From Synaphobranchus kaupii (taxonomy: Eukaryota; Chordata; Actinopteri; Anguilliformes; Synaphobranchidae): a stretch of DNA of 64,000 bases. The notes below the pieces were generated by a model that was given only the letters and a program-made list of their open reading frames with translations, was not told where the DNA came from and searched no databases. The DNA lies in the NCBI GenBank assembly GCA_029718625.1, contig CM056378.1:65309027-65373026 (forward strand), read 5' to 3'. The position numbers and the translations under genes were made by a program. Within the stretch, counting starts at the first letter, position 1. Every line of letters starts with the position of its first letter. Of this stretch, positions 3,420 through 55,157 are shown piece after piece.

Positions 3420-3514
3420 ATGACAACTGAAACTTCTGCTGACAACAAGATCTTCCGCTGTTTCTTCAATTCAGGGGGGATTTTATCAAGAATGAGGTTC
3501 AGCTTCCGAATTGC
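3420..3514 (-). CDS. sycp2: sycp2 coding exon 7
   Basis: Acceptor CTCTGCAG precedes 3514. The donor GTATGT starts at 3419, so the last Met codon is split AT|G. The exon is 95 bp and encodes [13 protein letters not shown] and onward, matching the SYCP2 stretch ending in ..LDKMP..KIL..LILM with three extra residues. The next exon is outside the window or not recognised. Confidence 0.85.
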
Positions 3515-6500
3515 CTGCAGAGACAATGCAGAAACATACTTTTAGATGAAAATACCTGTATTTTGTCGAATGCAGAAACACATTCAGATAAAAATACCTT
3601 TATTTTCACAAATGGATAAACACACATTCAGATGAAAATAATTTCATTTTCCAAATGCAATGCGAAACTCTCACCTCCTACCCAGAACCCAAGAATTATC
3701 ACTGATAATTGTGACACCTGTTGTGTAAATCATAAACAAACAAAATCTGGTGGAAAATAGCTCCACTTAGTAAAAAAGCTGTAATATCTGGCAACCTCAC
3801 TGACCTCTTTCTGGATCATGATTTGAACTCTGGAGTCTGCAGCCAATAGTCCTACGGGATGCAGGAATGACTCAGTCACCTGATATCTTCCTGAGAGAAA
3901 AAGACGCTGGGTTTTAAAATGATCCATTGATGTACAGAAAGTATCCCCGGTCCCCAAGGATCCAAATATTCAGATCAAACAAATGAAAAACATACTTGCC
4001 ATCATTGTTAGCTTCATGAACAACCTATAAGAATAAAAATAGCACTGTTAAACAGAATGTCACTGACTAGACCAGTCCAGTCTCACGCTTGTCTGCATTC
4101 TCCTGAATCAACAACAGAAGTTGTGATGAGTGTTGCAGCGTGAGCATTGTTTGGGCATTCCACATTGGGGATTAAAAGGGGGAAAGCATAAAAAAAGAAA
4201 AGAACAGGTCTAGTGGGGTTACTCACCATTAAAGCATCAAAGAAGTCTTCCGCAAGGTTGAGCAGTGTTTCATTCCTCTCCAGTCCTGCTTCCACCCACA
4301 CCTCAAGTGTTTTCCCATACCACTGCACCATGTGGACACAAAACAAATCATAAAAACCTGACAGGCTGGATACCATCTCTTATGGAAATGGATTATGCTG
4401 CAATATATTTCAATATTTATTATCAAGATCATAAAAGTTACACCACTTCACCATGAATGAGCAGTGAGACCGCTTGGCGCACCTTTTTTTCACTTTTATG
4501 TTTATACAATAACGCACAACAAATACAAAGTCACATACAAAAACAACAACAAAAAAACATGGCCAGTTGAAAAATAATCTTTGAAAGATGTCTACAAATA
4601 TTTAGTTCCTCTTAAGGTGAAATCCCTGTTCATGTCTGGAAAGGTAAGGATAAAGAAACAAGAAGAAAATATAGCTGCAAGCAGCGATTCCCGGGCATTA
4701 GCGGCATTTGTCAAACACAGAAACTGCAAAATGGTAGACAACTCGAGACAGGGTTGACCCAAAATACAAATACAGTGCCTTGCGAAAGTATTCACCCCCC
4801 TTGGCATTTTTCCTATTTTGTTGCAGTACAACCTGTAATTGAAATTGATTTTTATTTGGATTTTATGTAATGGCCTTACACAAAATAGTCCGAATTGGTG
4901 AAGTGAAATGGAAAAAAAAACTTGCTTTAAAAAATAAATAAATAAATAAAAAACTGAAAAGTGGTACGTGCATATGTATTCACCCCCTTTGCTTTAATGT
5001 ATTTTTAAAGTATCATATTTAATATTTGGTCGCATATCCTTTGCATGCTGTTACTTCCTGAAGTCTGTGACCCATCAACATCAAAAGACTCTTAACTTAT
5101 GATCTACAGTCACATAAGTTGGTGGATACATCCCGCTACTCCTGCCCAACAAATTTGCCTCAAGAAACCATGAAGTCTGCCATCTTCAATTTTCCGCTAA
5201 TTAGCATTTTTTGTAAAACACTTAAAATGCTACTCCTCCTACAGAATTTGACCAATTTGCACCAAACCTGTTCAAGGTACTGAAACCGCTTCCCTACATA
5301 CACGCATTACTTTACTAAGACGTATGTCAAAATTTGGCCGAATGAGAAGCCAATGGATTTTGCATTGGGCGTGGCTTATCGCACAAATGCTAGTACTTCT
5401 AAAACCGTTTGATATAAAGTTCTGAAACTTGGTGGGTTGATTGAGAGTTAGATCAAGACTCGAGCCCTGCAGTTTTAACCCAATCAATCTGCGTGGTGGC
5501 ACTAAAGAAATACAAATGTTGGGATGGCAGGTATGCCATCCGCCAAGTACACTATCTCTGCTTAACAGGCCGTCTACCTACTATACCACCTGTGAAAGTT
5601 TCTGTAGGTTAGTGGTTAAGGCATTTGACTGCCGTGTAGTAGGTTGGTGGTTCGATCCCCACCTGTTCCCGAGTTTTTTTTGAGGCACACAATGTGCACG
5701 TCATTGTAAGAATGTTCTTTTTATTGCAAAGGCTAGGAAATTTCACAATATTACCAGTTATCTGTTTGAATTATGAAGTCAGTAAGCCAAAACAATCTGA
5801 TACCGCAACACACAAGTCTTATTTGGCCTCCTCATTTCTGTTAACCTGCTTAGGCCTAGTGGATACAGTATTGGCTTTCCATGTGTATGTGGTCAATTCC
5901 GGCTTGGTACCAATGGCTTGGTTGATGTTTGGCAAAACTATTTTGCAAATGCTATGCTTCTTTTAATGTTGTTTTCACATTAAGAAACACCTTTTTATTG
6001 CAAAAGTTAAGAAATGTAACAGTATTAACTGTTCACTGTTTCACTTGTACTTAAAAGACTTAATACGCAAGCCCTTACCGGATCGGGTAAAGATACCATC
6101 AGCAATGGTAAAAGCCCTGATTAGAAACAAATATTTGAATTTTGGGTCAACCCTGTCTAGAGTTGTCTACCATTTTGCGGTTTCTGCGTTTCACAAATGC
6201 TGCTAATGCCGCACGGTCCCCAGAAATCGCTGCTTGCAGCTATATTCTTATATTTGGATCTCTATAGCGCCACCACATGGGTCGATTGGGTTGAAACTGC
6301 AGAGGTCAAGTCCTGATATTACTCTTAACAGACGTTCCAAGTTTCATAACTTTGTGTCAAATGGTTTTGGAATTATTAGCATGTTTTTGATAAGCCAGGC
6401 CCACTGGAAATTCATTGGCTCGTCATTTAAAATATCTAAATTCTGTATATAACTTTTATGAACCATGCTATAAGGAGTGTGTATACCAGGTTTCATGTAA

Positions 6501-9500
6501 ATTGGTCAAATTTTGTAGAAGGAGTAGCATTTTAAGTGTTTTACAAAAAATGCTAATTCGCAGAAAATCCAATATGGGTGACTTGATAGTTCCTTGAGGC
6601 AAAATTGTTCAGTATGAGCAGAGGGACCTGTATATCACATTTTTTGACTCTAGGTGAAATGGGGCGTCGGCAGTGGGCGTGTCAATGTCAATATTTTCAT
6701 GTGCACTACAGCGCCACCAATTGGCTTATCGCAACCAAATTTGGTGAGGGCTTGTGAGATTACAAGTTCTAACTATATGCCAAGTTTCATAAGAAGCAGC
6801 CAAGCGGTTAAGAAAAAATACAGAGAAGTAATAAATGAGTACATTTATGCCAAAATGGCAGCAAATTCAAGATGGCGCCCACCCAATTAGTAAAGATCTA
6901 TGATCCAAATCCAGGTCTTTGTCACTGTAGCAAGTTTGAAATCTCTGCAATCTCTGTGAATTTTTAAATATTTTTTTATATTTGGAACTCTGGATGGATT
7001 AGCCTAAGTGGCTAAACCTAATTAGCTAATTTAATCCTAAATGGATTTGGCTAAGGTGTATGTAAACTTTCGACTTCAACTGTAAATGACAATTCACGCA
7101 TTAGGCTTGATATAGGTGTTATCAGCAAAGTTTTCAATGGACAGCCATTGTCCCGTAACAGAAGATTGACCCCCCAGAAGATTACGCGGCAGGCAACTAT
7201 TAGCTAACTATTGCAGCCTATTGGCAAACTTTGTCCCCATGTGCAGTTGCAAACTGTAGTCTGGCTTTTTATGGCGGTTTTGGAGTAGTGGCTTCTTCCT
7301 TGCTGAGCAGTCTTTCAGGTTATGTCGATATACAGTCAAGACGGAAAGTCTGAACACCCCTTTCACCTTCTCCACGTTTTATTACGTTACAGACTTATAC
7401 AATAGATTGAGTTAATTTTTTGCCTCAAACATCTACACACAATAGCCAATAATGACGAAGTGAAAACAGGTTTTTAGAAAATATGCAATTTTATTTTATT
7501 GACAAAAATAGGTTATTTAGGGGTTACATATCTGTACACACCCTTAGCCTAATACTTGGTTGCTGCACCTTTGGCAGCGATTACAGCTTCAAGGCGTCTT
7601 GGGAAAGAAGCTACGAGCTTGGCACACTTGTTTCTGGACATTTTTGCCCATTCCTCTTGGCATATCCTTGCAAGCTCCGTCAGGTTGGATGGGGAGCGTC
7701 GGTACACAGCCATTTTCAGCTCTTTCCACAGATGTTCAATTGGATTCAGGTCTGGGCTCTGGCTGGGCCACTCAAGGACATGCACAGACTTTCTCCGAAG
7801 CCACTCCTTTGTCCTCTTGGCTGTGTGCTTTGGTCGTTGTCATGTTGGAAGGTAAACCTTCGCCCCAGTCTGAGGTCCAGAGCGCTCTGGAGCAGGTTTT
7901 CTTCAAGGATCTCGGTGTACTTAGCTGCATTCATCTTTCCCTCTATCAGGACTAGTCGCCCCGTTCCCGTTGCTGAAAAACATCCCCACATCATGATGCT
8001 GCTACCGCCATGCTTCACTGTAGGGATGGTATTAGCCAGGTGATGAGCGGTGCCTGGTTTTCTCCAGACATGATGCTTGGTATTCAGGCCAAAAAGTTAA
8101 ATTTTGGTTTCATCAGACCAGAGAATCTTGATTCTCATGGTTTGAGAGTCCTCTAGGTGCCTTTTGGCAAACTCCAAGCGGGCTGTGATGTGCCTTTTAC
8201 TAAGGAGGGGCTTCCGTCTGGCCACTCTACCATAAAGGCCTGATTGGTGGAGTGCTGCCTGGATGGTTGATCTTCTGAAAGGTTCTCCCATCTCCACAAG
8301 GATACGCTGGAGCTCTGTCAGAGTGACCCTCGGGTTCCTGCTCCCCTCCCTGGCCAAGGCCCGTCTTCCCCGATTGCTCACTTTGGCCGGGCGGCCAGGT
8401 CTAGGAAGATTCTTGGTGGTTCCAAACTTCTTCCATTTACGAATGATGGTGGCCACTGTGCTCTTTGGGACCTGTAAAGCTGCAGAGATTTTTCCGTACC
8501 CTTCTCCAGATCTATGCCTTGACACAATCCTGTTTCTGAGGTCTGCAGATAATTCCTTTGACCCCATGGCTTGGAGTTTACTCTGACATGCACTGTCAAC
8601 TGTGGGACCTTATACAGGTGTTGGCAATCCCCAATCATGTCCAATCAATTGAATTTATCACAGGTGGACTCCAATTAAGTTGTAGAAACATCTCAAGCAG
8701 TATCAGTGGAAACAAAATGCACCTCAGCTCACTTTTGGGTGTCATATCAAAGGGTGTGCACACTTGTGTACATATGATATTTTACATTTTGATTTTTAAT
8801 AAATTAGCACAAATGTCTAAAAGCCCATAATGACAAAGTGAAAACAGGTTATTTTGTGTAGAATTCTGAGACAAAAAATGAACTCAATCTATTGTAGAAT
8901 ATGTCTGAAACGTAATAAAACGTGGAGAAGGTGAAAGGCTAGGACTCGTTTTACTGTGGATATAGATACTTTTGTACCTGCTCCCTCCAGCATCTTCACA
9001 AGGTCCTTTGCTGTAGTTCTGGGATTGATTCGCACTTTTCGCATCAAAGCACGTTCATCTCTAGGAGACAGAACGCTAGGGCTGGGTATCGCCATGTATC
9101 TCACGATACGATACAAGGGTCACGATACGATACGATTCACGTGTATAACGATACAATGTGAATTACAATGCGATGTGGATCACAATATAAAATATATGGC
9201 AATAAACATCACAATCTACGCTAGTTTAATCAAAGTACAAAAATAAGGATAATATGAGGGTTTCAATTAAGTTTAAAATTTATTTCATTTTGAAAATTTC
9301 ATACGTTATTCAAATATCAGAAACACTGACAAATTATGGTATTCTTTTCCTATTCCTTTCCTGAACAAGAGAACATATGGCAAGTCAATCTAAAAATAGA
9401 TTGACTCTGTTTAACAATGGAGGTAAAATAGCTTTCTTTATGATTATATTATATTTCTAACAATGTCAGTATGTTAAACAGAGTCAATCTATTTTTAGAT

Positions 9501-12500: not shown

Positions 12501-15500
12501 GCTTGTTTAATTTCTGTGAGCTAAGATAGTCAATATTGTTTGTTGTAACTTGGCCTAATTTTGATATCGATAGGCCTACTTTTACTGGCAGGCCTCGGTT
12601 TTGCTAGTGTTATTGTATAGTGCTTTGTATGCGTAATTTGGCATTTTTGTACTGATAACGTTTTCTGTTGAGTTTTATGTAATAAGCTACTTCCAGCCAC
12701 ACACAACTATAAGCACTAATCAATCTTTAATCTCCCTGTGAACCCATGAATTATAATGAAGTTACATAAAATATTCAATAAAATGTACCTGTATTATTGA
12801 AATGCATGTGTCCAGGTGTTAGTTTTAGACTTGTACAGAAGTGTGTCAACTTTTTAAATCACATTCAGAACACTAGACATTAACACAATATACAAAGTCT
12901 AATTATTTAAGCTTTCAAACAACCAATGCACAATGGTTTGTCCATTAAAACTATGAAAGTGAATGCTTTTCCATTGATGGAATTTGCTGTTTCATTCAGC
13001 TAGAAATTGTAGTACCGGCATGCACTTTGTATTAGAAATGACCTGTTTGGTTTAGATGCAGCTGTCTTTACACTCTGATCACCAACATAACTGCAATATT
13101 ACGGCGCTTGCCAAAAATGACACTTTGTAGGTGCAGCTATTACCAGACCATAATCAGACCATAACTTTAAAGGGTATACAACAGCCAACGTGTCGTTCCA
13201 CGCAGTCATGGTGGCGCGGCGGTAATACTAGTGTTAATATAAAACGAACAGCCTATAGCCTATCACAGTTTGAATCTCGGCAAGCTCTTCAATAAAGAAA
13301 TGATGACAATAAATAAAAGCAAGTACTCCACGATGTGTATTGGCTACCCTTGAGTCTGTCACAAGGGATGTCATGCCAAGTTTATTTATTTATTACTTTT
13401 TAACAAGCACTGTTGCAATTAAGTTGTATTGCTGAAGCTAAGCAGGTGTGGGCTTGGTTAGTACTTGGATGGGAGACCTCCTGGGAAAACTAAGTTGCTG
13501 CTGGAAGTGGTGTTGGTGGACCAGTAAGGGGAAATCTTCCCTCTGGTCAAATAAACCCCAATGCCCCAGTGCAGTGATGGGGACACCGTGCTGTAGGAGA
13601 TGCCATATTTCGGATGAGACGTTAAACCGAGGTCCTGTGGTCATTAAAGATCCCATGACATTTATCGCAAAGAGTAGGGGTTTCCCCGGTGTCCTGGCTA
13701 AATTCCCAACCTGGCTCTTTCAATCTGCCACCTAATCATCCCCCAGTTTAATTGGCTAAAATCATTCTCTCCCTCTCCACCTCAGCTGATGTGTAGTGAG
13801 CATTCTGGTGCAAAATGGCTGCCGTTGCATCACCCAGGTGGGAGGTAGAGGTGAGTTTCCCCCTCATCATTGTAAAGCGCTTTGAGTCACCGGTTGTGAG
13901 AAAGGCGCTATATAAATGCAAGGCATTATTTTATTATTATTAACGGTGAAACAACATGCGACTGGTAACATGGCTTAAGAAATGATGTATTGACGTTGTC
14001 TATGTAACATTGTGATTAGGGTGTAATTTCTCACGTAGCCGCAACCATGTTATTATAACGTTTAGGAAACTTTCATTTCCAACCATAATGGAACGCAAAA
14101 TCAATGTCAGAGTTTGTCCATCAAATTGCAATATTATTATGCCGTCTGATTTTTTATGGTGCCCAAGATTGTAATCTTAACGTTGAATAAACTTTCATTT
14201 TCAACCATCATGGGACATAAATCCAACATTGTAGGGTGACGGTCAAATTACAACATTGAATAAACTTTTATTTTCAACCTTCACGTACCTTAAAGGCAAC
14301 GTGACAGATTGACCATCATTACAACATACTATTTTTAATGTTGTGAATTTAATGTTTAAAAAACTTAAATTTCAACCACCTGACAATTTAAAGTTGGCGT
14401 TATATACTGGCCATCAATTTGAGACGTCATTCCAATGTTTCATGTCTAACTGAGCTGCAGCATTGCCATTCTAACGTTTAAAAACAGTCACATACCCTCA
14501 AACTAACGTCAGGTTAGTTAGGTTTTTAACGTTGTTTCAACCATAACACAATATAAAATGCCTAAGGGGAAGTCTCATGCTGATTTCTCAAATACTAAAA
14601 GAGATGTCTTTTAAAGATGTAAAAAGTACTCCTTCCATAGGCTTGCTTCCCCTTGCTTCATTGTACATTAACAGCCGTACAGGCAAAACGTACAGGCAAA
14701 ATTCCACATCATAAAGTGCCCAGACTTCATGTTTAGATTGTATTTAAGGACGTTGAACAATATTTTCTTTTAAAATGTGTGTTAATATTGTCTTTCTTGG
14801 TATCAAAGCCAAGACAAGTTCAATACATTTTAATGGCTCTTAATGGGATTTTAGGAAGTACAATGGACTTTACATCGCAATGCTCAAACAAAGTTTATCT
14901 GATATTGCTCATTTATAGATGCCATTTGAGATCCTGTAGAAACATTCCAGTGGAAACATTCCACTGAAACTGCCCTCCTCAGAGTCTCAAATGACATCAT
15001 GATGTCCTCTGACTCCGGCGAATGTTCTGTCCTGGTGCTGTTAGATCTCAGCGCAGCCTTCGACACGGTTGATCACAGCATCCTGTTAGATAGGCTCAGG
15101 GAGTGGGTGGGCATCTCTGGGAGCGCTCTAAATTGGTTTGCCTCCTATCTTAAGGAGAGAAGCTTCTCTGTGGCTGTTGGTCCCTTTAAATCTGACCCCA
15201 CACCCCTTTCGTGTGGCGTGCCACAGGGATCCGTGCTAGCGCCAATCCTTTTCGCCCTATACATGCTCCCCCTAGGCCTCCTCATCAGGAATTTCAAGGG
15301 TATCTCTTATCACTGCTATGCGGATGATATCCAATTGTATTTCTCCTTCAAGCCTGACAAAATGAAGAAACTCAATATTTTACAGGAGTGTCTGTCCGCC
15401 ATTGAGAGTTGGATGGGGAGTAATTTCCTCCAACTCAATGCGGCAAAAACTGAAGTGCTGATTGGAGCTGCTGACAACATTGCCGCTAGAGTAGCCACCC

Positions 15501-18500
15501 ACATGGGGCCCCTTAAGGGAAACGTACACCCTTTTCTAAGAAACCTGGGGGTTATTTTCGATCAGTCTATGCATTTGGACAAGCATGTTAAATCCCTTAC
15601 CCGTACCTGTTTCTTTCACCTCAGAAATATTGCAAAACTCCGGTCCATTGTATCGCATGCTGAATTGGAAATGTCTGTACATGCATTTATTTCTTCCAGA
15701 CTCGATTACTGTAACTCCCTGTTTACTTGCCTCAACAAATCATCTGTGGACCAACTTCAGTTGGTCCAAAACGCCGCTGCTAGGCTGCTCACCAGGTCTA
15801 AGAAATCATGCCACATCACTCCCATCCTTGCCTCTCTGCACTGGCTCCCAGTGCAACTCAGGATCCATTTCAAGGTCCTGGTGTTCACCTACAGAGCCCT
15901 CCTCGGTCAAGCCCCCATCTACATCACAGATCTCATCCACCCATACTCATCCAGCCGGTCACTGAGGTCGTCCGACCAGGGGCTCCTGGTGGTGCCCAGG
16001 ACCAGACTAAAAACCAAAGGGGACCGAGCCTTCGGGGCGGCGGCCCCAAGGCTCTGGAATGCCCTCCCCCTGGACCTGAGAGCTGCACCCTCGGAGAGTA
16101 CTTTCAAAAGTCAGCTAAAGACCCATTTGTTCAGGCAGGCATTTGGCCATCCCTAGCCAACCACTGTTTTTCTGTATTTGCTGTTTGTTTCTTGTGATTT
16201 TTCCTGTCTTTTATGGATGCTTTTTATTTTTATTGATGTTCTGATTTTATTATTGTTGTAAAGCACTCGGTGCACTCGTGCTGGGAAGGGTGCTATATAA
16301 ATGTATGGGAGCGCTTTACATTAAAGTCTTCGAACAGGCCGTTAGCTGCAAAATGTGCAAAGCTGACCTCGAATGGCACGGGAGCACAACCATGCACGAG
16401 CACTTGAAGAGAAAGCACGTTGGAGCCATGGATGAAGCGGACTCATCAGCACGGTAAGTTAGTACAAAATACTAGTCAAAAACAAAGTAGTAAGATAAAT
16501 ATTTGAAACACAAATTAAACAAGTTTGGCCTTGTGCCATGAGTTGTTTTGAAGTGAGAAATCGTTCATCTCCTAGTCATTATTTTTATTCTTAATTAATG
16601 GCATGCATGGCAATTAGTTGACTAGTAATTTACTAACCAATTTAGGAGATCAAGGATTCAGAACAATGATTAACATCCTCAACCCGGGTTACACTCTTCC
16701 GCAAGGACCAATTTCACCAAATTGATGGAGGAAGTACCAAAAGACATTCTAGGAAGTGAAGAGTGCCATAAAAGTCACCAACAGCAGACTTGCACTCACC
16801 ACTGATGGTATGGACAAGTGTACCTACTGAAGCCTACCTTGGCATTACATGCCATTACATCGGAGATGACTGGAACACAAAGTCAATCTGCCTTACCACT
16901 ATGCCACTAGAACACAGACATGCAGTATCCAATATTGCAGAGTGGTTGGAGGAGGTAGCAGCCAGGTTTGAAATTCCTCCTAGCCAAATTATTGCCATTG
17001 TGCATGACAATGGTGCCAATATTGTAGCTGCGGCAAACATTCTGAAGGAGAAGCACGGGTGGCTATTGTTGGGTTTATCTCGTTGCTATGACGTTATTCT
17101 AATTTTATATGATGAATAAATATATTTATGAACTCAAACATAGACGCTATTGTCCACTATGTCACGCATAGGTAGGTATAGACTAGGTGGGGGGTTGCTT
17201 GATAAATGGACTTGCTGCAGGGAAATAGTGGCACTTAGAAACTAGGTATTCGGCAGAAATCGTCACGAACAGTCTACCAATAAATTTAAAACACAGAGTT
17301 TGTGATTTCCAATAATAGTTCGGCTGCAGTAGCACGAATGTCTCAGTTGAGCAAAAAGGTGACTCCGGCGCCACCTTCTGCACAAAGGTGTTAAGCAAAG
17401 GTGGCCTGTCCGACTCATCCACCACACAGAGGGGCAAACGGTACCTTGACCTAAAAGCTGACCAGTGGAGCCTGCTTGAAGAGCTCTCCACAGCCCTTAA
17501 ACCATTTGAATGTGCCACTGTGTTTATGAGTGGGGAGAAATATACTACAATCTCTGCAGTACCTCCACTTGTAAAGGGGCTATTGAAGTCCACCCTGAGT
17601 GCTTCCTTCGAGTCAGCCCCAGTGCAGGCTTTCCAAGTCACTGTTACAAAGCAGCTTCAACAGCGATGGAAGAAGACGACTACTTTCTCAGACACGGCAT
17701 CACCAGCATGCCCTGGAACTGGGCAGACTGAAGTTTCTGACACCTGAGCAAGTCTTTAATGTACAAGACAAAATTCAAACACATGCACTCACAGTTAGAA
17801 GGGGGGTAAGATGATCAGCAGCAGCATGACCGTCTCTGTGACCAAACCAGTGCCACCTCCACCATTACTACAGCAATCTCTTTACTTAACTCACTCCTCG
17901 AGTCTGAAACCAGCAGTGAGGAAGAGAATAGAGAGGGGGAAACTGAAGATGATCTCAACGGCCAAGTGAGGAACAAAGTCCTCACTTACTTTGGAGAAAA
18001 GTCCCTTGCCAAGGAATAAAACCCTTTACATTGGTGGAAGGCTAACGAGGATAGATATCCCACCTTGGCCAGGCTAGCAAAGTCTTACTTATGTATCCCT
18101 GGCACGTCAACACCATCTGAGCGCCTCTTCTCTGCAGCAGGCAACATATTTATTTATTTATTTCGGCATGCATATAGTCACACTTCATCACAATTTCTGT
18201 AATATGCCCTGAACAAACACAGTACCTGCCGAAAAGGGATACGGGAAAAAGCAGACTGCTTATCAAGGTCCCGCCCCAATTCCCAAATCAAATTTGAATG
18301 TTCACATTATACATTGTTTAAAACAGATTGTTTCATATCACAACAGCTTCATATCACAATTTGAATGTACATATCAACACAGCCATGAAAGTCAAAACCG
18401 CTTACAATGTTTTTGCACATTGTGACATTGTTTTCATTTCATGGTAACCCACTTTGTTTATGTTTGGTAGTCCCCTACCATCTTACATTTTATCCCACGC

Positions 18501-24500: not shown

Positions 24501-27500
24501 GTATGCTACCCATAAGTTTCGTTTAAGGAAAAGGATTCCGTGGCTTACATGGAACCAGAGTATATGGTCCCATCCCGTAAAAGCTTTACCTCGCAAATTG
24601 AAAAGCTGTATGCTGACACTGCCGGAGATCTCCGCAAAACATTAGCCAGTGTTGAAAATTTCCAGTAATTGTTAAGAAGAAAAAAAAGGATGTAGCCAAG
24701 GAAAAGCTTATTATTTAGCAATTGTAATCATTGTAGTAGTGTACATCCTTGTTTTTGTTATTATCCTAATCAAAACCAATCTATGTGACGTGTTGAATTT
24801 AGGCTACATGCTGTTCTTATTGTCGGCTATGAGCCGCTTATACACACCGTTCTTATTGTCGGCTATGAGCCGCTTATTGCCGATAGCCTATATTGTTAAG
24901 AATTTTACACAAAAAAAAAGAATGTAGATGGAATAGCCTATTATTTAACCATTGTTATTAAAACAATATTTGACATAGATTTGTATGAGGTTTAGTTCTA
25001 TTAAAGTCATCATTGAACCAAGGCTAAAGTTCTGTTTAACAGCCTCACTTTTTCCGTTTGGGGGGGTGGGGGTGAGAGGAACGTTGGGGCATTTTGAATT
25101 TTCGAATATTCGCTCTCAATAGCCATAAACTATTTGAAAATCATTTTGGCATGTCATGCACATCCCTACCACAAAAGTACTAACACAAACAAACATGCCT
25201 AAATTCTGTACAAAGTCCAAGATAACCTATTATGTTAATGTTGATATATGTCTGAATGAACGTTCTATAGCCTTTAATGAACTCGGCAGATCGCTACACC
25301 TCTAATTTATTTGAAGAAATCAACAACACGGTTTGGTGACAGTCGAGATTTAAATGAGCATATCTCGCTTAATATTTGGAGTAGAAAGATAATAGAGAAT
25401 CCTGAGACTCATATTTATAGCAATTTATACAACTCTAAATGCCATAATGTCCACACGCCCCATCCTCTTGAATATATGGTCACCCTAAACCAGAGGTGTC
25501 AAACTCGTTCCATCGAGGGCCGAGTGTATGCAAGTTTTTGTTCTAACCATGCTCTACACCAGCTGATTCCACTAATTAGTTCACCTCCTTGGTTGAAGAG
25601 CTGAGCTAATTAGTGAAATCAGCTGGTGTAGGGCACAGTTGGAACAAAAACCTGCATACACTCGGCCCTCGATGGAATCAGTTTGACATCCCTGCCCTAA
25701 ACAGTGCAAGAAAAACTACATGACTAGCCTACTCTGATGATAACAACTTTAACAACATTTGTAGTTCCTGCTTGCGCGGCCATACAAGTAGATACTGTAC
25801 ATCAGGGTTAGAAATTAACGGGGCCTTGGGGCAAAAATGCCCTCAAATGGATAATATGCCCTTGAAAATCAGTTAAGGGGGGCAAAAAATGCCCTTGACA
25901 TTTCCGAGGGAATTTATATGGTTTATATAGCTCTTTTTTTCCTGTCACGAAAATGTCTGGAAACATTGATAATAATACGTTACCAAACAGTAAAGAATAG
26001 AATAATTTTACTATAATGAAGAATGAAAGACGTGGATTAGTAATCCCTATTGATCAAATGCCAACGAGTCTCTCCTCTATGGTCCCACCATTGCGAATAG
26101 TAGCTGCGTCTGCTGCGGCGTTGTGGTTGTGCTAACGACATTAGCAGCATGGGGAGTTTTCTAGTAGCCTACCCACAACGAAGCCCGTCCAAAAGCCGAC
26201 AATAACGCTACATGGGGAAACAAAGGTCCCACCACCACCAAACAAAAATGTAAAGCGCTCAACAGCGGAGTCCTGGAAATTGGACTGGGTGGGGATCAAC
26301 GAGGAGGGTGATCATATAACGTTGTTGGCAGTATTGCAAAGTAATCAAGTTATTGTAGCCTACTTAAGTAGTTTTGACGACTTTACTGTATTTTACTCAA
26401 GTAGTTATCTTTCTGTTTACTTTCACTTTTACTTCTCTACATTTTCAAAATAAAATTGATACTTTCACTCCGCTAAAATTTCCAAGTGTTTGTTACCAAG
26501 TAAAAAATAACGCCGAACTGAAGACAACAGTCAGCGCACCAGCCAGTAACTTGACCAGCCTACTCTCGGTCCGTAAACTTGATTAAAAATAATACTACAC
26601 CCAAAAGTGATCATAATGATCAAACAAAATTTAGCACAGACCCACCATTATTTTTGTGTACATTCTTATGCCTTTTTGTGTTATTTTTAACAAGTGGGTG
26701 TCTCAAAGATTTATTTTGTATTTTATTTATGTAAAGCTGGCTTCAAGTTAATCTGAACCAAATATCTGATATAAATATCTGAACCATAGGCGGCGATCAT
26801 GTGGGTGCTCAGGCACCTGGGCACGCACGGGCAAATCGTATTGCAGAGTGAAGTTATATTTTGATGAAATAAACGTGAAACCTATTGAAAAGCGCTGTTT
26901 GTTGAGGTATGCTACATCGCCTACTACTGTACTGACTCTCCAGAGTGCCAGCTATCAATAAGACAGTTCGCTAGAGGTGACGTTGACTCCACGAAATTGA
27001 CAAGTTTGTAGTACCAATTAAACCCAAAACCCACGAAGAATTAAACATCACACCTGTGTCAAACGATTCTGAGGGAAGTAACGTTAGCAGCAAAGTTTCA
27101 ACATCTGCCTCCCAGTGAACATTTTTACGTTGAAAAGTCGCTGAAATTCCATCTCACATTCAGGTGAAAAACCGGTTAAAATTGGTTTAAAAGTTTTTGA
27201 ACCGTCACGCACTTTGAACGCACTTTTACACTTGCGTACGTGCCGAATCATATACAGTGGGAACAGAAAGTATTTGGGCAGTGACACATTTTTTGTTGTT
27301 TTGGCTCTGTACTCCAGCACATTGGATTTGAAATGGAACAGTGACTATGAGGTTAAAGTGCAGACTTTCAGCTTTAATTTGAGGATTTTTACATCCATAT
27401 TGGGTGAACCGTGTAGCAATTGTATCTCTTTTTATACACCCCCCCCCCCCCAACCCCCATTTTAGGGGAAGAAAAGTAATTGGACAAATTAACATAAACT

Positions 27501-30124
27501 TAAATAAAGTCAAGATATTTAATATCTGGTTGCATATCCTAAATGAAGTCGCATATCCTAAATTAAGTTTGTAAATGTGAATTTAATGATTCAATTAAAT
27601 GAAATAAAGTATTTTGGATGCCATTAATTGAGTTGTATTTTTTTTTAAACGATTGGGATGTTTAATAAGCTTTTTCATCATAACATGTGAGTGCCCCCGA
27701 AATGTGAAAAAATACCCTTGAAAATCATTAAGGGGGGGCAAAAAAAAAGCCCTGTGAAAAAAAAGTGAATTTCGTACCCTGCTGTATATCCTTGAACAGC
27801 TTCAGCAAGCCTAGCCTTGTTGACCAATTGCAGACGAGGGTGTATTGGCGGATGGTGAACGAGGCTGTGCAAAAATTTTGTCCAGTTCGGCTCGCAAGCC
27901 TGCAAACACTGCAACGACCAAAGCCCAATGCGACGCTTCATTTTGGTCACAAACCAGCGAAAACCGGTTTGACGGCCTGTGCTTTCAATTTATATTTAAG
28001 TATACTGGGGCCTTTCAGACCAGGTTTGTGGTGCCTCAAATAGCAATACTCACACCTCATCTTTAGACCAACCCGCCAAGGTGGGCGCAAGTTCACTTGC
28101 TATTTAAACAACGTGATCACTGGATGGTAAAATTACTGCGTCGGTCTGAAACTAGCAAAGATACTTGCATTTGGGTTACCACCGCTTAGCGCATAGTGTA
28201 AGATAGAGCCCTTTATGAGCATAAAACACGAGTAAAAAAGACTAGCGGCCTGATTTACTAAGACCTTTAGCGTGTACAAAGTCTTTTAGCACACACAAAA
28301 CTAATAACACAACCAATGATCGGTGGAAAACAAATACCATGACCAATCATTGGTCATGTTATAAATTTTGCGTATGCTAAAAGGTTTTGCACACGCTAAA
28401 GGTCTTAGTAAATCAAGCCTTATGTGAGTATAAAACACTATATGAGCATAAAACACTTATCTTTTTAACAAGGCCTTGAGTTCCATTCCCTGACACCCAC
28501 ATGCCTCCTGGGCCGGTCAGAGACTTTCCAAACCTGTGCAGGCAGCTCAGGCAGAGAGACACATGCTTTGCGTTCCCCTTATCTAACTCCTAAAGGATGG
28601 CAAAAATTTACATGTAAAAATCTTAAAACACTGAATGTTCTTGACACTGTGGGAGACTTTGTCTCCTTACCCTGTTTATGAGTTTGTCCAGCTTGTTGAT
28701 GAACTGTTTTGAGCATTTTGGATGTACTTGCTCACTGGTTTCATCCCGCAGCAGCTCCTCCAGTGTGTGGAAGTCACTGCGCTTCAGAGCCTCATCAATC
28801 AGCTTCTCCAGCTTCAACAGGGAGAGGAATCAGGCCTAACTGGAAGCTACAACTATCAACTACAGAGGGAGCTAACAAAGCTAATTTTATTTATATGTCA
28901 TTCCCATGGACTCAAAATGCAGCTCCTAGCATACAAGCACATCTGTGTATCTATGTTGCGCATATTTATTATGAAATCAGAAACACCAAAGTCTTATGAC
29001 AAAATGTTCATGAATAATCCCAATGTTAGCTTATATAAACAACTGCTTTTTATGTTCCACAGAAGTTAGAATTTCTGTTCAACATGCAAAGCAGATACCT
29101 GTTGCTTTTATGTTTAGTTGTCAGTCTAGTTATGTTTAGTTGTCATGTCCAAATGCAAATGCACTGGATGGGCAGTTAAAACTGATTTAAAATTCATGTT
29201 TGCAGCACACAGCTTTTGAATTGTTTGCAAATACATTAGCTAGCATTGCTAAACTATATTCCATTACTGAGGCCCAAGGGCCTCATTTATCAATATCCTC
29301 AAACAGATGCGTGGCACAGAGTATATTATCATTAGGGATGCAGCGGTATACCGGTTTCACAATATACAGAGGTATGAAAATGGATGGTTATCATACCGTA
29401 GACATGTGCTTATCCAAGGTTTTGAATTCTACGGTTTTCCATGTTATTTTAGCACAAACGCAACTCAATGGAAAATGAGACAGCTACTTGCGTAAGAACG
29501 TTCAATCCATGATATTTCCTCAGCTGTCATTCAGCACGTGAGTCGCACACACAACAGACACGCTTATTGCTTTAAAAAGGTCCTGCATCCTTTATTCCTT
29601 TTTTCTCAAAAGGGAGATATAGATATGCATACTTCCATTTATTTACGTTTTTAAAATTATATCTTTCAAGTAATTAAAATTTTTGCTTTCAATATAAAGT
29701 ATCTTTGCAGGACATAATACCGTTGTGAAAATACAATAAAGCTTTTTTTCAATCACAAAAATAACTGTTTTCCTTAAAGGGTTGTTTTCATTCCTCCAAG
29801 GGTTGTTGTAAAACAATAACAATTATGTAATTGTAATACTGTGAAACCGTGAACCTTGATATTTTCTGAGACGGTTATCATACCGTAAAAATGTCATACC
29901 ATTGCATCCCTAATTATCATTGTCACAGATAAATTTATATAGGGCAGAATATGTGCACAAGAAACAGTGATTTTCACATACTTCTAACTACATAAGTACA
30001 CACAAACATTTCACTGTGTTTGGCAGCAGGTAATACAAGATTAAAGAAAGATCCTTATTCAATTTGTCAGCATATTAATTTTTTCAAATCACAATATTAC
30101 CTGTTGGCCCTGACAAGGTAGCAT
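3420..30124 (-). CDS. sycp2: Synaptonemal complex protein 2 family gene, 5' coding exons (partial)
   Basis: Coding segments, in transcription order, are 30124-30101, 28811-28671, 28589-28461, 4331-4227, 4024-4000, 3890-3805 and 3514-3420, together 605 nt or about 201 codons. The rest lies beyond the left edge. The predicted protein matches the N-terminal armadillo-like domain of SYCP2, a lateral-element component of the meiotic synaptonemal complex that works with SYCP3. Shared landmarks are [53 protein letters not shown] and LILDKIP. Exons 2, 3 and 4 encode 47, 43 and 35 residues, the same as the matching stretches of human SYCP2 as I recall it. No stop or frameshift is seen. Introns are 81-1289 bp except intron 3 (24,129 bp). 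The paralogue sycp2l cannot be excluded without a tree. Confidence 0.9.
3805..3890 (-). CDS. sycp2: sycp2 coding exon 6
   Basis: A strong polypyrimidine acceptor (TTTTTCTCTCAG) precedes 3890 and the donor is GTCAGT at 3804. The exon is 86 bp: it starts with two bases (GA) that complete the Gly codon begun in the microexon, then 28 codons including [11 protein letters not shown] and [11 protein letters not shown]. Confidence 0.9.
4000..4024 (-). CDS. sycp2: sycp2 coding exon 5, 25-nt microexon with GC donor
   Basis: The acceptor TTCTTATAG ends at 4025. The exon encodes VVHEANND plus the first base of a Gly codon. The donor reads G|GCAAGT, a GC-AG intron. In SYCP2 the matching stretch is VIHDVSDEG, the same length. 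Without this microexon, exon 4 (phase 0) cannot join exon 6 (needs one base), so the reading frame itself demands it. Confidence 0.88.
4227..4331 (-). CDS. sycp2: sycp2 coding exon 4 (follows an AT-AC intron)
   Basis: The exon encodes 35 residues starting [12 protein letters not shown] and ending FFDALM. The donor is GTGAGT at 4226. Upstream of the first codon the intron ends TGTGTCCAC, i.e. AC rather than AG. A CAG at 4325-4323 offers an AG acceptor that would drop the residues MVQ. Conservation (QKMVAW in SYCP2 versus KKMVQW here) favours the AC boundary. Confidence 0.87.
4773..5100 (+). mobile_element. Tc1-like terminal fragment
   Basis: It begins CAGTGCCTTGCGAAAGTATTC after a TA, a common fish Tc1-family terminus. 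It then runs into 'gcatatcctttgcatgctgttac', also found in the Tc1 derivative at 51639-52690 and inverted at 23105-23195. The other end is missing. Confidence 0.7.
5155..5505 (-). repeat. Interspersed repeat A, minus-strand copy
   Basis: Read on the minus strand, it carries the phrases 'aaatgctaattagcggaaaat', 'ggaggagtagcattttaagtg' and 'tgggttaaaactgcag', which define copies at 6247-6895, 57115-57585, 57654-58165 and 63455-63890. Confidence 0.65.
5590..5665 (+). repeat. tRNA-like module (SINE head or tRNA relic)
   Basis: An A-box-like 'taggttagtggttaaggc' and a B-box-like 'ggttcgatccc' are spaced as in a tRNA gene. The T arm can pair only with an 8-base loop and there is no convincing acceptor stem, so this is a tRNA-derived repeat rather than a working tRNA gene. 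Confidence 0.5.
6247..6895 (+). repeat. Interspersed repeat A, plus-strand copy
   Basis: It starts 'tatatttggatctctatagcgccacca' in effect and continues with the family phrases 'gattgggttgaaactgcag', 'tttcatgtaaattggtca' and 'gtgggcgtgtcaatgtca'. It abuts the right inverted repeat of element D. Non-coding. Confidence 0.65.
7036..7082. mobile_element. Orphan Sleeping Beauty-type terminus
   Basis: 'aaatggatttgg' followed by 'gtatgtaaact' and ending TTCAACTG before a TA is the outer end of a Sleeping Beauty-type element, the same as the start of the copy at 61817. Only about 45 bp survive. Confidence 0.7.
7084..7162 (+). repeat. Low-copy repeat, paralogous to 491-590
   Basis: See 491-590. This copy lacks the internal direct repeat and begins directly at the orphan Sleeping Beauty-type terminus. 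Confidence 0.55.
7333..8939 (-). mobile_element. Tc1-like transposon, copy 2, inserted in the Sleeping Beauty-type element
   Basis: It is the same family as 833-2476. It starts CAGTCAAGACGG after TA 7331-7332, within 'gtcgata'. It stops at 'gtgaaaggc', about 30 bp short of its own right terminus, and the host resumes at TAGGACTCG (8940-8941 is the second TA). The terminal loss at the right end makes it immobile. Confidence 0.9.
7549..8567 (-). pseudogene. Tc1 transposase, nonsense and frameshift mutated
   Basis: The ATG at 8567 opens [20 protein letters not shown], with the helix-turn-helix, the GRPAK hook and the first catalytic D in LWSDETKI, then an in-frame TAA at 8097. The C-terminal half (7549-8018) has a frameshift within the FQHDND region, about 7785. 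DLNPIEHLW and KGAATKY are intact. It is better preserved than copy 1, with the N-terminal 156 codons continuous. Confidence 0.9.
8941..10824 (-). pseudogene. Sleeping Beauty-type transposase N-terminus, interrupted
   Basis: From the ATG at 10824 the sequence encodes [20 protein letters not shown], then the helix-turn-helix and GRRR hook. The hAT at 9077-10632 cuts it at '..GRRRVL'. Coding resumes below 9076 with [20 protein letters not shown] up to STVKR, where the Tc1 at 7333-8939 cuts it again. The catalytic domain is gone except for non-coding remnants. Confidence 0.88.
9077..10632. mobile_element. hAT non-autonomous element N1 with large internal palindrome
   Basis: Termini TAGGGCTG and CAGCCCTA are perfect inverses, flanked by CAGAACGC (9069-9076) and CAGAACAC (10633-10640), an 8-bp target duplication with one mismatch. 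It lies inside a Sleeping Beauty-type element. Subterminal 'cgatacgatac' motifs cluster at the left. No transposase is recognised. It contains a near-perfect inverted repeat centred at 10077/10078 with ~150-bp arms, and a smaller one (9390-9416 with 9473-9499). Confidence 0.88.
11197..11600. other. Intronic sequence, nothing recognised
   Basis: AT-rich, with a short TC run near 11431-11442. No coding exon or terminal repeat is apparent. Confidence 0.4.
11600..12590. mobile_element. Inverted-repeat element C
   Basis: The left arm 11628-11790 ('gatatcaaaattaggccaag', 'gctctattccaaagcaatgc', 'cttaccatctgaa') recurs inverted at 12415-12575. The interior has no coding pattern. A half copy lies at 2790-3210. 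Exact ends and target duplication were not fixed. Confidence 0.65.
12600..13395. other. Intronic sequence, nothing recognised
   Basis: No convincing exon, terminal repeat or tandem array. There is a short 'tttatttattta' run at 13381-13392 directly before the SINE. Confidence 0.35.
13400..13933 (+). mobile_element. 5S rRNA-derived SINE (SINE3-like)
   Basis: The head contains the 5S rRNA internal promoter region: 'gaagctaagcagg', 'ggttagtacttggatggg' and 'agacctcctgggaa'. The body includes 'gcaaaatggctgccg' and the 3' end 'aaagcgctttgagtcac...gcgctatataaatgcaa', the L2/CR1-like tail shared by such SINEs. The first ~50 bp of the 5S unit are missing or diverged. A minus-strand body fragment is at 53683-53830. 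Confidence 0.88.
13940..14560 (+). repeat. Degenerate tandem repeat, unit about 80-95 bp
   Basis: At least four units repeat the pattern 'aacgtt-ataaacttt-attttcaacca...gaccatcaaattacaac' (about 14058, 14183, 14252, 14344). They are too diverged for a recent satellite. Confidence 0.55.
14940..16315 (+). mobile_element. L2-clade LINE, 5'-truncated
   Basis: Coding homology starts near 14955 with [12 protein letters not shown] and runs to the stop at 16156. It is followed by a ~160-bp 3' UTR with 'taaagcactcggtgcac' and 'ctatataaatg', typical of the L2 3' end. The endonuclease domain and the RT N-terminus are missing. Confidence 0.9.
14999..16156 (+). CDS. L2 LINE reverse transcriptase, partial but open
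   Basis: There are 385 codons without interruption, open upstream to about 14951, so the ATG is simply the first internal Met. RT motifs in order are [13 protein letters not shown] (catalytic Asp), [11 protein letters not shown] and YADDIQLY (the YADD catalytic pair). The C-terminal tail carries [19 protein letters not shown] and LFRQAF, usual for the L2/CR1 group. A full element would add an apurinic endonuclease domain and about 300 more residues. It is well preserved compared with its neighbours, which suggests a fairly young 5'-truncated insertion. It is not expected to be mobile. Confidence 0.9.
   Translation: MMSSDSGECSVLVLLDLSAAFDTVDHSILLDRLREWVGISGSALNWFASYLKERSFSVAVGPFKSDPTPLSCGVPQGSVLAPILFALYMLPLGLLIRNFKGISYHCYADDIQLYFSFKPDKMKKLNILQECLSAIESWMGSNFLQLNAAKTEVLIGAADNIAARVATHMGPLKGNVHPFLRNLGVIFDQSMHLDKHVKSLTRTCFFHLRNIAKLRSIVSHAELEMSVHAFISSRLDYCNSLFTCLNKSSVDQLQLVQNAAARLLTRSKKSCHITPILASLHWLPVQLRIHFKVLVFTYRALLGQAPIYITDLIHPYSSSRSLRSSDQGLLVVPRTRLKTKGDRAFGAAAPRLWNALPLDLRAAPSESTFKSQLKTHLFRQAFGHP
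16770..18145 (+). pseudogene. hAT transposase, degenerate
   Basis: The fragments carry the hAT RNase H-like core ([27 protein letters not shown]) and the C-terminal hATC motif ([20 protein letters not shown]). There are multiple frameshifts and in-frame stops, including one directly after the first catalytic region. The long middle block (17388-17747) is open in one frame. It would act in the nucleus as a DNA transposase if intact. Here it is dead. Confidence 0.82.
18150..18955 (-). mobile_element. LINE 3' end inserted in the hAT relic
   Basis: The minus-strand reading frame 18943-18458 (161 codons) ends with [20 protein letters not shown], the C-terminal signature of several fish non-LTR elements. 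The 3' tail on the minus strand ends in AAATAAATAAATA at 18152-18167. It interrupts the hAT dimerisation domain right after '..SAAGN'. The clade cannot be fixed from this tail alone. Confidence 0.65.
19330..19650 (+). pseudogene. Sleeping Beauty-type transposase, C-terminal third
   Basis: It is open from the boundary to the stop: [20 protein letters not shown] (second catalytic Asp), then [15 protein letters not shown]. The usual third acidic residue E is D here (NPID for NPIE), which also breaks the DDE signature. It ends FKGNATKY. The N-terminal two thirds are absent. Confidence 0.88.
19330..19847 (+). mobile_element. Sleeping Beauty-type element, 3' part
   Basis: It starts inside the transposase at the hAT boundary and ends TTCAACTG before TA 19848-19849. 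It has inner and outer direct repeats ('catgtaaacttctgaccca' and 'tttaaatgga'). Its 5' half is not adjacent on the other side of the hAT relic. Confidence 0.88.
20130..20580 (+). pseudogene. L2-clade LINE RT fragment
   Basis: Reads [34 protein letters not shown], then after a frame break near 20300 [29 protein letters not shown] and [16 protein letters not shown] followed by a stop. The catalytic region after PQGS is missing. It is more diverged than the copy at 14.9 kb. Confidence 0.85.
20590..22880. other. Intronic sequence without a recognised gene
   Basis: A short open frame at 21311-21409 (plus; [16 protein letters not shown] and onward) looks protein-like but has no recognised family. 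A segment near 22128-22220 is shared with 33230-33330 ('taggctacagctttaagaaaa'), marking a low-copy repeat. Confidence 0.35.
22905..23040 (+). repeat. Short tandem array, unit about 36 bp
   Basis: 'tattttacctcagtgacatt' recurs with variation near 22912, 22949, 22976 and 23003. Confidence 0.6.
23105..23195 (-). mobile_element. Tc1-derivative fragment
   Basis: It matches, inverted, the segment at 5030-5100 and parts of 51890-52070 ('gatatcttattttc', 'tttgcatgc', 'tgtgacc'). It directly abuts the Sleeping Beauty-type end at 23198. Confidence 0.6.
23198..23437. mobile_element. Solo Sleeping Beauty-type right IR/DR
   Basis: 'ttaaaggcacagtcaactta', then 'cttctgacccactggaatt' through TTCAACTG before TA 23438-23439, equivalent to 10965-11194. 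No transposase sequence is attached. Confidence 0.88.
23967..25168 (+). mobile_element. hAT element N2 with BED-finger remnant
   Basis: Termini are TAGGGATATTC and GCACATCCCTA. Flanks GCACAAAG and CCACAAAA differ at two of eight positions, a likely decayed target duplication. It contains a BED finger (24270-24400: [19 protein letters not shown] and MHLIAT) and a broken stretch at 24520-24620 reading [23 protein letters not shown], from the transposase. A 30-bp internal tandem duplication lies near 24807-24878. Confidence 0.78.
24220..24420 (+). pseudogene. BED zinc-finger exon of a hAT transposase
   Basis: The 66-codon frame includes W-N-F-F, CKFC and a final M-H-L pattern where the zinc-binding His pair should be. 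The last His appears lost (ATNR). BED fingers bind DNA and recruit hAT transposases to their ends. The remainder of the protein is deleted or shifted. Confidence 0.7.
25491..25694. mobile_element. Palindromic hAT MITE with perfect 8-bp target duplication
   Basis: It starts CAGAGGTGTCAAACTCG and ends AGTTTGACATCCCTG. Both flanks are CCCTAAAC (25483-25490, 25695-25702). Nearly the whole 204 bp folds on itself. The terminus resembles Tol2-group hAT ends. A second copy is at 52998-53171. Confidence 0.9.
25803..27781 (+). mobile_element. hAT element N3 (decayed, with nested insertions)
   Basis: Termini CAGGGTTAGAAATTAAC and GTGAATTTCGTACCCTG are inverse with mismatches. Flanks CTGTACAT and CTGTATAT form an 8-bp target duplication with one mismatch. 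Subterminal 'cccttgaaaatca' phrases mirror each other (25858, 27714). 26240-26310 encodes [20 protein letters not shown], reminiscent of a hAT zinc-finger exon. A Tc1-like end starts at 27255. Confidence 0.82.
27255..27545 (+). mobile_element. Tc1/mariner terminal fragment inside hAT N3
   Basis: It begins CAGTGGGAACAGAAAGTATT after TA 27253-27254 and continues with 'gctctgtactccagcac' and 'ggttaaagtgcagac', a common fish Tc1-family end. It contains a C14 run at 27440-27453. The other terminus is absent. Confidence 0.75.
27980..28212 (-). repeat. MITE-like repeat B, second copy
   Basis: Same family as 2517-2775. The minus-strand end is GGGCTCTATCTTACAC. Confidence 0.6.
28251..28421. mobile_element. 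Palindromic MITE
   Basis: 'cctgatttactaagaccttt' at the left mirrors 'aaaggtcttagtaaatcaag' at the right, with nearly complete pairing inward ('ttttagca' against 'tgctaaaa'). It is non-coding and sits just inside sycp2 intron 3, about 40 bp from the AT donor. Confidence 0.8.
28461..28589 (-). CDS. sycp2: sycp2 coding exon 3 (ends at an AT donor)
   Basis: The acceptor CATCCTTTAG ends at 28590. The exon has 43 codons, [12 protein letters not shown] through GTQGLVKK, matching ELNKEDIHNVSA..KQGLIQK in SYCP2 with identical length. The next intron bases are ATAAGT. The only nearby GT (28456-28455) would add one base and put exon 4 out of frame. Confidence 0.9.
28671..28811 (-). CDS. sycp2: sycp2 coding exon 2
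   Basis: The acceptor CTCTCCCTGTTGAAG ends at 28812 and the donor is GTAAGG at 28670. There are 47 codons, phase 0 at both ends: [14 protein letters not shown] to [16 protein letters not shown]. By my alignment about half the residues match human SYCP2, with the same length. Confidence 0.92.
29333..29912. mobile_element. hAT MITE with perfect 8-bp target duplication
   Basis: Termini are TAGGGATGCA and TGCATCCCTA, perfect inverses, with ATTATCAT on both sides (29325-29332, 29913-29920). Subterminal 'ggttatcataccgta' occurs at both ends in direct orientation. It has no coding capacity and lies in sycp2 intron 1. Confidence 0.9.
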
Positions 30125-54657: not shown

Positions 54658-55157
54658 NNNNNNNNNNNNNNNNNNNNNNNNNNNNNNNNNNNNNNNNNNN
54701 NNNNNNNNNNNNNNNNNNNNNNNNNNNNNNNNNNNNNNNNNNNNNNNNNNNNNNNNNNNNNNNNNNNNNNNNNNNNNNNNNNNNNNNNNNNNNNNNNNNN
54801 NNNNNNNNNNNNNNNNNNNNNNNNNNNNNNNNNNNNNNNNNNNNNNNNNNNNNNNNNNNNNNNNNNNNNNNNNNNNNNNNNNNNNNNNNNNNNNNNNNNN
54901 NNNNNNNNNNNNNNNNNNNNNNNNNNNNNNNNNNNNNNNNNNNNNNNNNNNNNNNNNNNNNNNNNNNNNNNNNNNNNNNNNNNNNNNNNNNNNNNNNNNN
55001 NNNNNNNNNNNNNNNNNNNNNNNNNNNNNNNNNNNNNNNNNNNNNNNNNNNNNNNNNNNNNNNNNNNNNNNNNNNNNNNNNNNNNNNNNNNNNNNNNNNN
55101 NNNNNNNNNNNNNNNNNNNNNNNNNNNNNNNNNNNNNNNNNNNNNNNNNNNNNNNNN
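54658..55157. other. Assembly gap, exactly 500 N
   Basis: A round 500 suggests a placeholder of unknown true length. Confidence 1.

Follow-up and report, generated by a model that had tools for sequence, protein, structure and literature searches.

The closest described relative of the intron analysed here lies in the same gene in humans. Human SYCP2 intron 5 is reported, in the legend to Fig. 5E of PMC8280824, as an AT-AC intron of the major (U2-type) spliceosome; in that work it was tested by RT-PCR after depletion of CENATAC, a factor of the minor spliceosome, and it was grouped with the introns unresponsive to CENATAC loss. Two further introns named in the same source bracket the comparison: TAF2 intron 1 has the AT/AC ends and the major-spliceosome assignment of the eel intron but belongs to a gene that is not orthologous, and IPO5 intron 21, a U12-type AT-AC intron, shares the terminal dinucleotides. 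A passage of PMC11353295 instead calls the human SYCP2 intron U12-type, citing there no test of the SYCP2 intron, and its class is thus disputed in print (PMC8280824 versus PMC11353295).

We analysed a 64-kb window (by which we mean the whole stretch of DNA under study) from the deep-sea eel Synaphobranchus kaupii, whose minus strand carries coding exons of the meiosis gene sycp2. Our reading, to which we assign a probability of about 0.93, is that the long phase-0 intron between exons 3 and 4 is orthologous to human SYCP2 intron 5 and, with its AT-AC ends, is spliced out by the major (U2-type) spliceosome. Sodium channel genes also contain AT-AC type II introns, with the same ends and the same spliceosome, but these are not orthologous to the eel intron. 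Human SYCP2 intron 5 agrees with it in gene, in phase-0 position before the codon for M100 and in pair class, and appears to differ in length: the eel intron spans 24 kb, whereas the human one may be short, as the legend names both unspliced and spliced PCR products (PMC8280824). The initial annotation had presented an AT-AC intron of this length, full of transposons, as a striking case; AT-AC ends are not new to sycp2, given that the human orthologue was in print by 2021 (PMC8280824). The novelty is small, since the human orthologous intron is already known as AT-AC, though the titles and abstracts listed from open-licence papers contained nothing on this intron in fish or in SYCP2L, and passages of PMC4176328, PMC7367187, PMC3584512, PMC8283771, PMC12106479 and PMC7062287 did not deal with it. 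What is new here is that some sycp2 models of other vertebrates fail at the exon 3/4 junction.

All exons of the gene model lie on the minus strand. A probable first coding exon (MLPCQGQQ, positions 30101-30124, donor gtaata) was placed by tblastn of the public protein P0002 and by its codons, and is followed by a coding exon reading LEKLIDEAL...LINR (28671-28811, GT donor). Exon 3 (28461-28589) has 129 nt, or 43 codons, in phase 0, ends GGC CTT GTT AAA AAG and aligns to mouse SYCP2 (5iwz_A); exon 4 (4227-4331) has 105 nt, or 35 codons, also in phase 0, begins ATG GTG CAG TGG and has a GT donor. These sizes agree with the 43 and 35 residues given in the initial annotation. Exon 5 (4000-4024, 25 nt), exon 6 (3805-3890) and exon 7 (3420-3514) follow. 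The joined protein matched the Pfam family SYCP2_ARLD (E 7.6e-54) and mouse 5iwz_A (E 1.2e-37), both queries being an earlier gene model with one X at the exon 5/6 junction, away from exon 3/4. The mouse alignment is gapless across the exon 3/4 junction (eel QGLVKK/MVQWY, mouse QGLVQK/MVSWF; slashes mark junctions), in keeping with the protein GLVKK-MVQWYGK proposed beforehand.

The exon 5/6 intron (window positions 3999-3891, minus strand) is itself unusual: it is a GC-AG intron (ATG/GCAAGT...CTCAG), so that sycp2 has two introns with unusual donors, one AT-AC and one GC-AG. The GC donor gives NNDGRYQV, as in the public S. kaupii protein P0001. An alternative exon 5 donor, GGCAA/GTATGT, was dropped with the first AG acceptor because the product is out of frame, and with the acceptor four bases later because the GC-AG pair yields the R seen in P0001 and in the Megalops protein P0055.

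The AT-AC intron occupies positions 4332-28460 of the minus strand (24,129 nt, no N), opening with ATAAGTGT and closing with TTTTGTGTCCAC. Exon 3 is followed directly by ATAAGTGTTTT, and exon 4 is preceded by TTTTGTGTCCAC (GTCCAC/ATG GTG). The intron's 3' end (4332-4356, minus strand) comprises a T-rich tract, TTTTTATGATTTGTTTTGTGTCC, a possible branch A near 4351 and the terminal AC. The last 60 nt contain no AC other than the terminal one; the nearest AG starts 28 nt from the intron end, and the single yUnAy match lies 20 nt from it. The nine-base string AAGATAAGT has no further copy in the intron, while ATAAGT occurs seven times, the donor included.

We listed the in-frame, stop-free GT-AG, GC-AG, AT-AC and AT-AG pairs, taking donors between -45 and +60, and acceptors between -90 and +45, relative to the claimed ends. 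Among the 57 pairs obtained, only the claimed AT-AC pair gave the uninterrupted GLVKK/MVQWYGK GLVKKMVQWYGK, a product that none of the GT-AG or GC-AG pairs in this range yielded. Since AT is also the start of exon 4, the boundary may be shifted by 0-2 bases and written as AT-AC, TA-CA or AA-AT; to our knowledge, only AT-AC among these is a well-known pair. The ends are thus AT and AC within a slide of 0-2 bases, and, judged from the sequence, the eel sycp2 intron very probably begins AT and ends AC. The coordinates and AT/AC ends given in the initial annotation proved exact, this being the sole pair among those listed that keeps the protein whole.

The position of the human intron can be read from a published variant. 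The SYCP2 variant c.298-3dup adjoins a splice site, with c.89dup located in exon 4 (PMC11353295); because c.298-3dup lies at an intron acceptor, c.298, which opens codon 100, is the start of an exon. In the SYCP2 proteins of dog (P0014) and orca (P0019) and in a mammal-like one that groups with dog (P0016), residue 100 is the M of MV(A/T)WFEK. With human exon 4 as LEK...CR and exon 5 as the 43 codons before M100, intron 5 corresponds to the eel AT-AC intron. Provided that the exon boundaries of the human gene fall where they do in the eel, human intron 5 is therefore its orthologue. The eel intron bears in turn on the printed disagreement over the class of the human intron, the site of a variant from an infertile man (PMC11353295).

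The reference donor consensuses are GTAAGT and, for the U12 class, ATATCCTT or GTATCCTT, and the U12 branch site is TCCTTAAC-like and close to the acceptor. The eel donor, ATAAGT after AAG (28455-28460, minus strand), carries AAGT at +3 to +6, the bases that fit U1, and matches GTAAGT at 5/6 positions, while ATAAGTGT matches the U12 consensus ATATCCTT at only 4/8. In the last 60 nt the highest-scoring U12-branch-like site is TTCCATAAG (7/9), 48 nt from the intron end, a score equalled or exceeded by 7.9% of 2000 random intron 60-mers and so at chance level. Across the donor and last 60 nt, then, we found no U12 donor or branch signal by these consensuses, and the eel intron lacks both the ATATCCTT-like donor and the TCCTTAAC-like branch of U12-type AT-AC introns. 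The initial annotation's assignment to the rare major-spliceosome AT-AC class is supported by the orthologous human intron 5, described as U2-type AT-AC in the legend cited above (PMC8280824). Our data support the eel intron as AT-AC type II, with independence of the minor snRNPs suggested by analogy with human intron 5.

An intron with AT-AC ends could still belong to the minor class, since, as a passage of PMC7072748 states, the U12 spliceosome recognises the majority of AT-AC introns, and the U12-type label in PMC11353295 points the same way. The poor donor fit, the chance-level branch match and the placement of human intron 5 among CENATAC-unresponsive introns (in the grouping of PMC8280824) all weigh against this class for the eel intron, and we consider it improbable. 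We regard as still less probable that the AT donor is joined mainly to the CAG nine bases into exon 4 (4323-4325, minus strand), giving an AT-AG intron and a protein without MVQ. This competing acceptor had been pointed out in the initial annotation; it is present in the splice-pair listing, in frame and stop-free, and CAG is a common acceptor, but the splice does not need it. A first-base A and a last-base G make a poor pair, and codons for M and V stand exactly before the CAG and recur in relatives. Moreover, among the matches listed, the third exon 4 residue in 84 joined fish models is Q in 68, E in 4 and H, D, S, A or V in 12; codons for the latter five cannot end in AG, so the internal CAG is not needed in those 12 models. 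Models P0084, P0089 and P0120, from other fish, resume directly at the W of exon 4, the result expected from an internal acceptor of this kind, and all three do so from donors upstream of the AT site.

The lowest probability falls to a sequencing or assembly error, or a private mutation, at what would otherwise be an ordinary GT-AG intron. The window represents one assembly, and the public S. kaupii proteins P0001 and P0002 come from the same contig; even so, the oddities of the two ends match each other, the same ends appear at the protein level in models of other fish, of turtles and of SYCP2L, and the human intron is reported as AT-AC (PMC8280824, Fig. 5E legend). Given the human AT-AC intron together with AT/AY ends in other vertebrates, an error or private mutation at 28460 is very unlikely.

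The evidence from other vertebrates comes from the gene models themselves. The public S. kaupii annotation, on the same contig as the window and hence not independent of it, cuts sycp2 into two models exactly at the AT-AC intron: SKAU_G00095610 (P0002) covers the exons as far as GLVKK and continues through the donor, and SKAU_G00095600 (P0001) starts at the exon 4 ATG. P0002 also opens with 84 residues from far upstream (window positions 47723-47472) that are not seen in other SYCP2 models; the true start of sycp2 is likely the MLPCQGQQ at 30124. The only run of N in the window, a 500-N scaffold gap at 54658-55157, lies outside the intron.

Three protein searches supplied 173 proteins (7 from one, whose query was an earlier gene model differing at one residue of the exon 5/6 junction, 51 from another, 5 of these among the 7, and the best 120 of 818 from the third). 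In a pattern recount, the exon 4 start was found in 139 of the 173 proteins listed and was lacking or altered in 34. In 101 of the 139 this start seems to be joined to an exon 3 end (P0008 and P0123, which carry extra residues from the donor, are counted here); 20 begin exactly at the exon 4 codon, and 18 do neither. The 20 that begin at exon 4 comprise Synaphobranchus, Pangasius, Lepisosteus, Polyodon, Thamnophis, Monodelphis (two), Centrocercus, Silurus, Leucoraja and ten full-length models, among them Anguilla anguilla. Joined models are uninformative on the intron bases, although any produced by a program that allows only GT-AG introns would oppose an AT-AC intron in its species.

Among the matches listed, 15 of the 18 models that neither join nor begin at exon 4 carry H (6) or Y (9) directly before it. 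These residues are encoded by CAY and TAY, so if the models are read-throughs their introns end AC or AT, two endings that protein evidence cannot tell apart; an AG end would have to be read as K, Q, E or a stop. Among the 15 are two carp models and two from carp relatives, clownfish, stickleback, mackerel and two turtles, and three are SYCP2L paralogues (Amia, Podiceps and Nannospalax). At the donor, eight read-through models picked by eye continue with I (7) or M (1), which implies an intron starting AT, since a GT start would give V. The read-through models are in part non-independent, with two from Channa argus, two from Cyprinus and the window's own P0002. The stickleback model P0136 shows both signs (LLEK/IST...GFVH/MVQWF), with 33 residues, or 99 nt, between LLEK and MVQWF, and appears from its sequence to read through the whole intron. 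P0007 was considered as another full unspliced copy of an AT-AC intron and rejected as such, because exon 3 is not the best-scoring match at the implied offset and its donor is no more than compatible; its acceptor side holds, and only the acceptor was used as evidence. The check proposed in the initial annotation, a search for the same intron ends in other vertebrates, thus returned AT and AY ends in protein models.

Three of the 18 models do not fit this pattern. P0003 has G before exon 4 after an apparent cryptic splice, P0171 has R, being extended at the donor and joined inside exon 4, and in P0005 (Danionella) exon 3 is truncated and leads into MVQW with S as the residue before it. The last could reflect an ordinary acceptor in Danionella.

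How an intron with such ends would be removed can be outlined from its sequence and from what is known of its class. U1 could pair with AAG/ATAAGT through the exon end and positions +2 to +6, tolerating the A at +1, and U2 and U2AF may use the T-rich tract and the branch A about 20 nt upstream of the intron end. In AT-AC II introns, the first and last bases make an A-C contact in the second step. In the eel intron, such a contact would replace the usual G-G contact, so that the first AC after the branch would be chosen. The predicted product joins GLVKK to MVQWYGK and would keep the armadillo-like domain whole. The odd pair may persist because its repair would need both ends to change together, any single change leaving a mismatched pair.

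Evidence on the age of the intron comes from the paralogue. In a tree of 21 proteins, labelled from names and sequence, SYCP2 and SYCP2L separated with 100/100 support, and P0001 (exon 4 onward, same contig), which represents the window gene, fell within SYCP2. The H/Y signs in three SYCP2L proteins, along with Leucoraja P0030, which starts at the same codon, suggest that the odd ends predate the SYCP2/SYCP2L duplication. The AT-AC type II intron of sycp2 is probably ancient. We lean, with some reserve, towards the fuller proposition that it predates the SYCP2/SYCP2L split; that both genes have retained it from the earliest jawed vertebrates onward, at lengths from ~100 nt to 24 kb, through paired end bases that lock each other; and that because of these ends a key meiotic gene has been split or misread by annotation in many species. 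The rare splice-site pair of the human gene is thereby suggested to reach back to early vertebrates, paralogue included, and, if so, the SYCP2/SYCP2L intron would lend itself well, as a natural example, to tests of how A-C end pairs persist.

AT-AC ends seem to mislead automatic gene annotation in several species: at the exon 3/4 junction, part of the public sycp2 models have a late start, a truncation or retained intron sequence. Claims of loss of function and domain studies based on faulty sycp2 models accordingly need checking. A count of broken junctions was dropped as support for exon 3/4 because it did not single out this junction. P0055 served as the reference for 119 full-length models from the matches listed; their query covered exon 4 onward, which favours intact later junctions. 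Of these models, 24 were not intact at exon 3/4 and 38 at exon 2/3, with no failure at any of the next three junctions. In the exon 2/3 failures (among the matches listed), only the upstream side scored in 22 of the 38, which we put down to divergence of exon 3, and neither side scored in the other 16. P0141 was scored as intact in this count, yet reads through the intron in the residue check.

The intron had been described as full of transposons, a claim we could check in part: two of five open reading frame pieces inside it pass Pfam, as a transposase and a reverse transcriptase. The former is a Tc1/Sleeping Beauty-type open reading frame (8097-8609, minus strand; HTH_SB E 8.8e-28, HTH_Tnp_Tc3_2 E 1.8e-21), and the latter is LINE-like (14930-16156, plus strand; RVT_1 E 9.8e-26). 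In addition, 15 inverted-repeat pairs were listed inside the intron; one of these (I6) forms a foldback element with 78-nt arms, 86% complementary, at 28247-28419, starting 41 nt inside the donor. With 24 kb in the eel against 99 nt in the stickleback model, transposon insertion is the likely reason for the length of the eel intron, which would have grown to 24 kb in the eel lineage with its ends kept.

The foldback is flanked by a 27-nt direct repeat, at 28203-28229 and at 28430-28456, and a further copy of the repeat occupies 28412-28438; the arrangement would fit insertion of the element next to the splice site. Outside the AT-AC intron, a Tc1-type transposase-like sequence lies at ~1000-2100 on the minus strand, in the intron after exon 7, and by eye resembles the copy at 7.4-8.6 kb.
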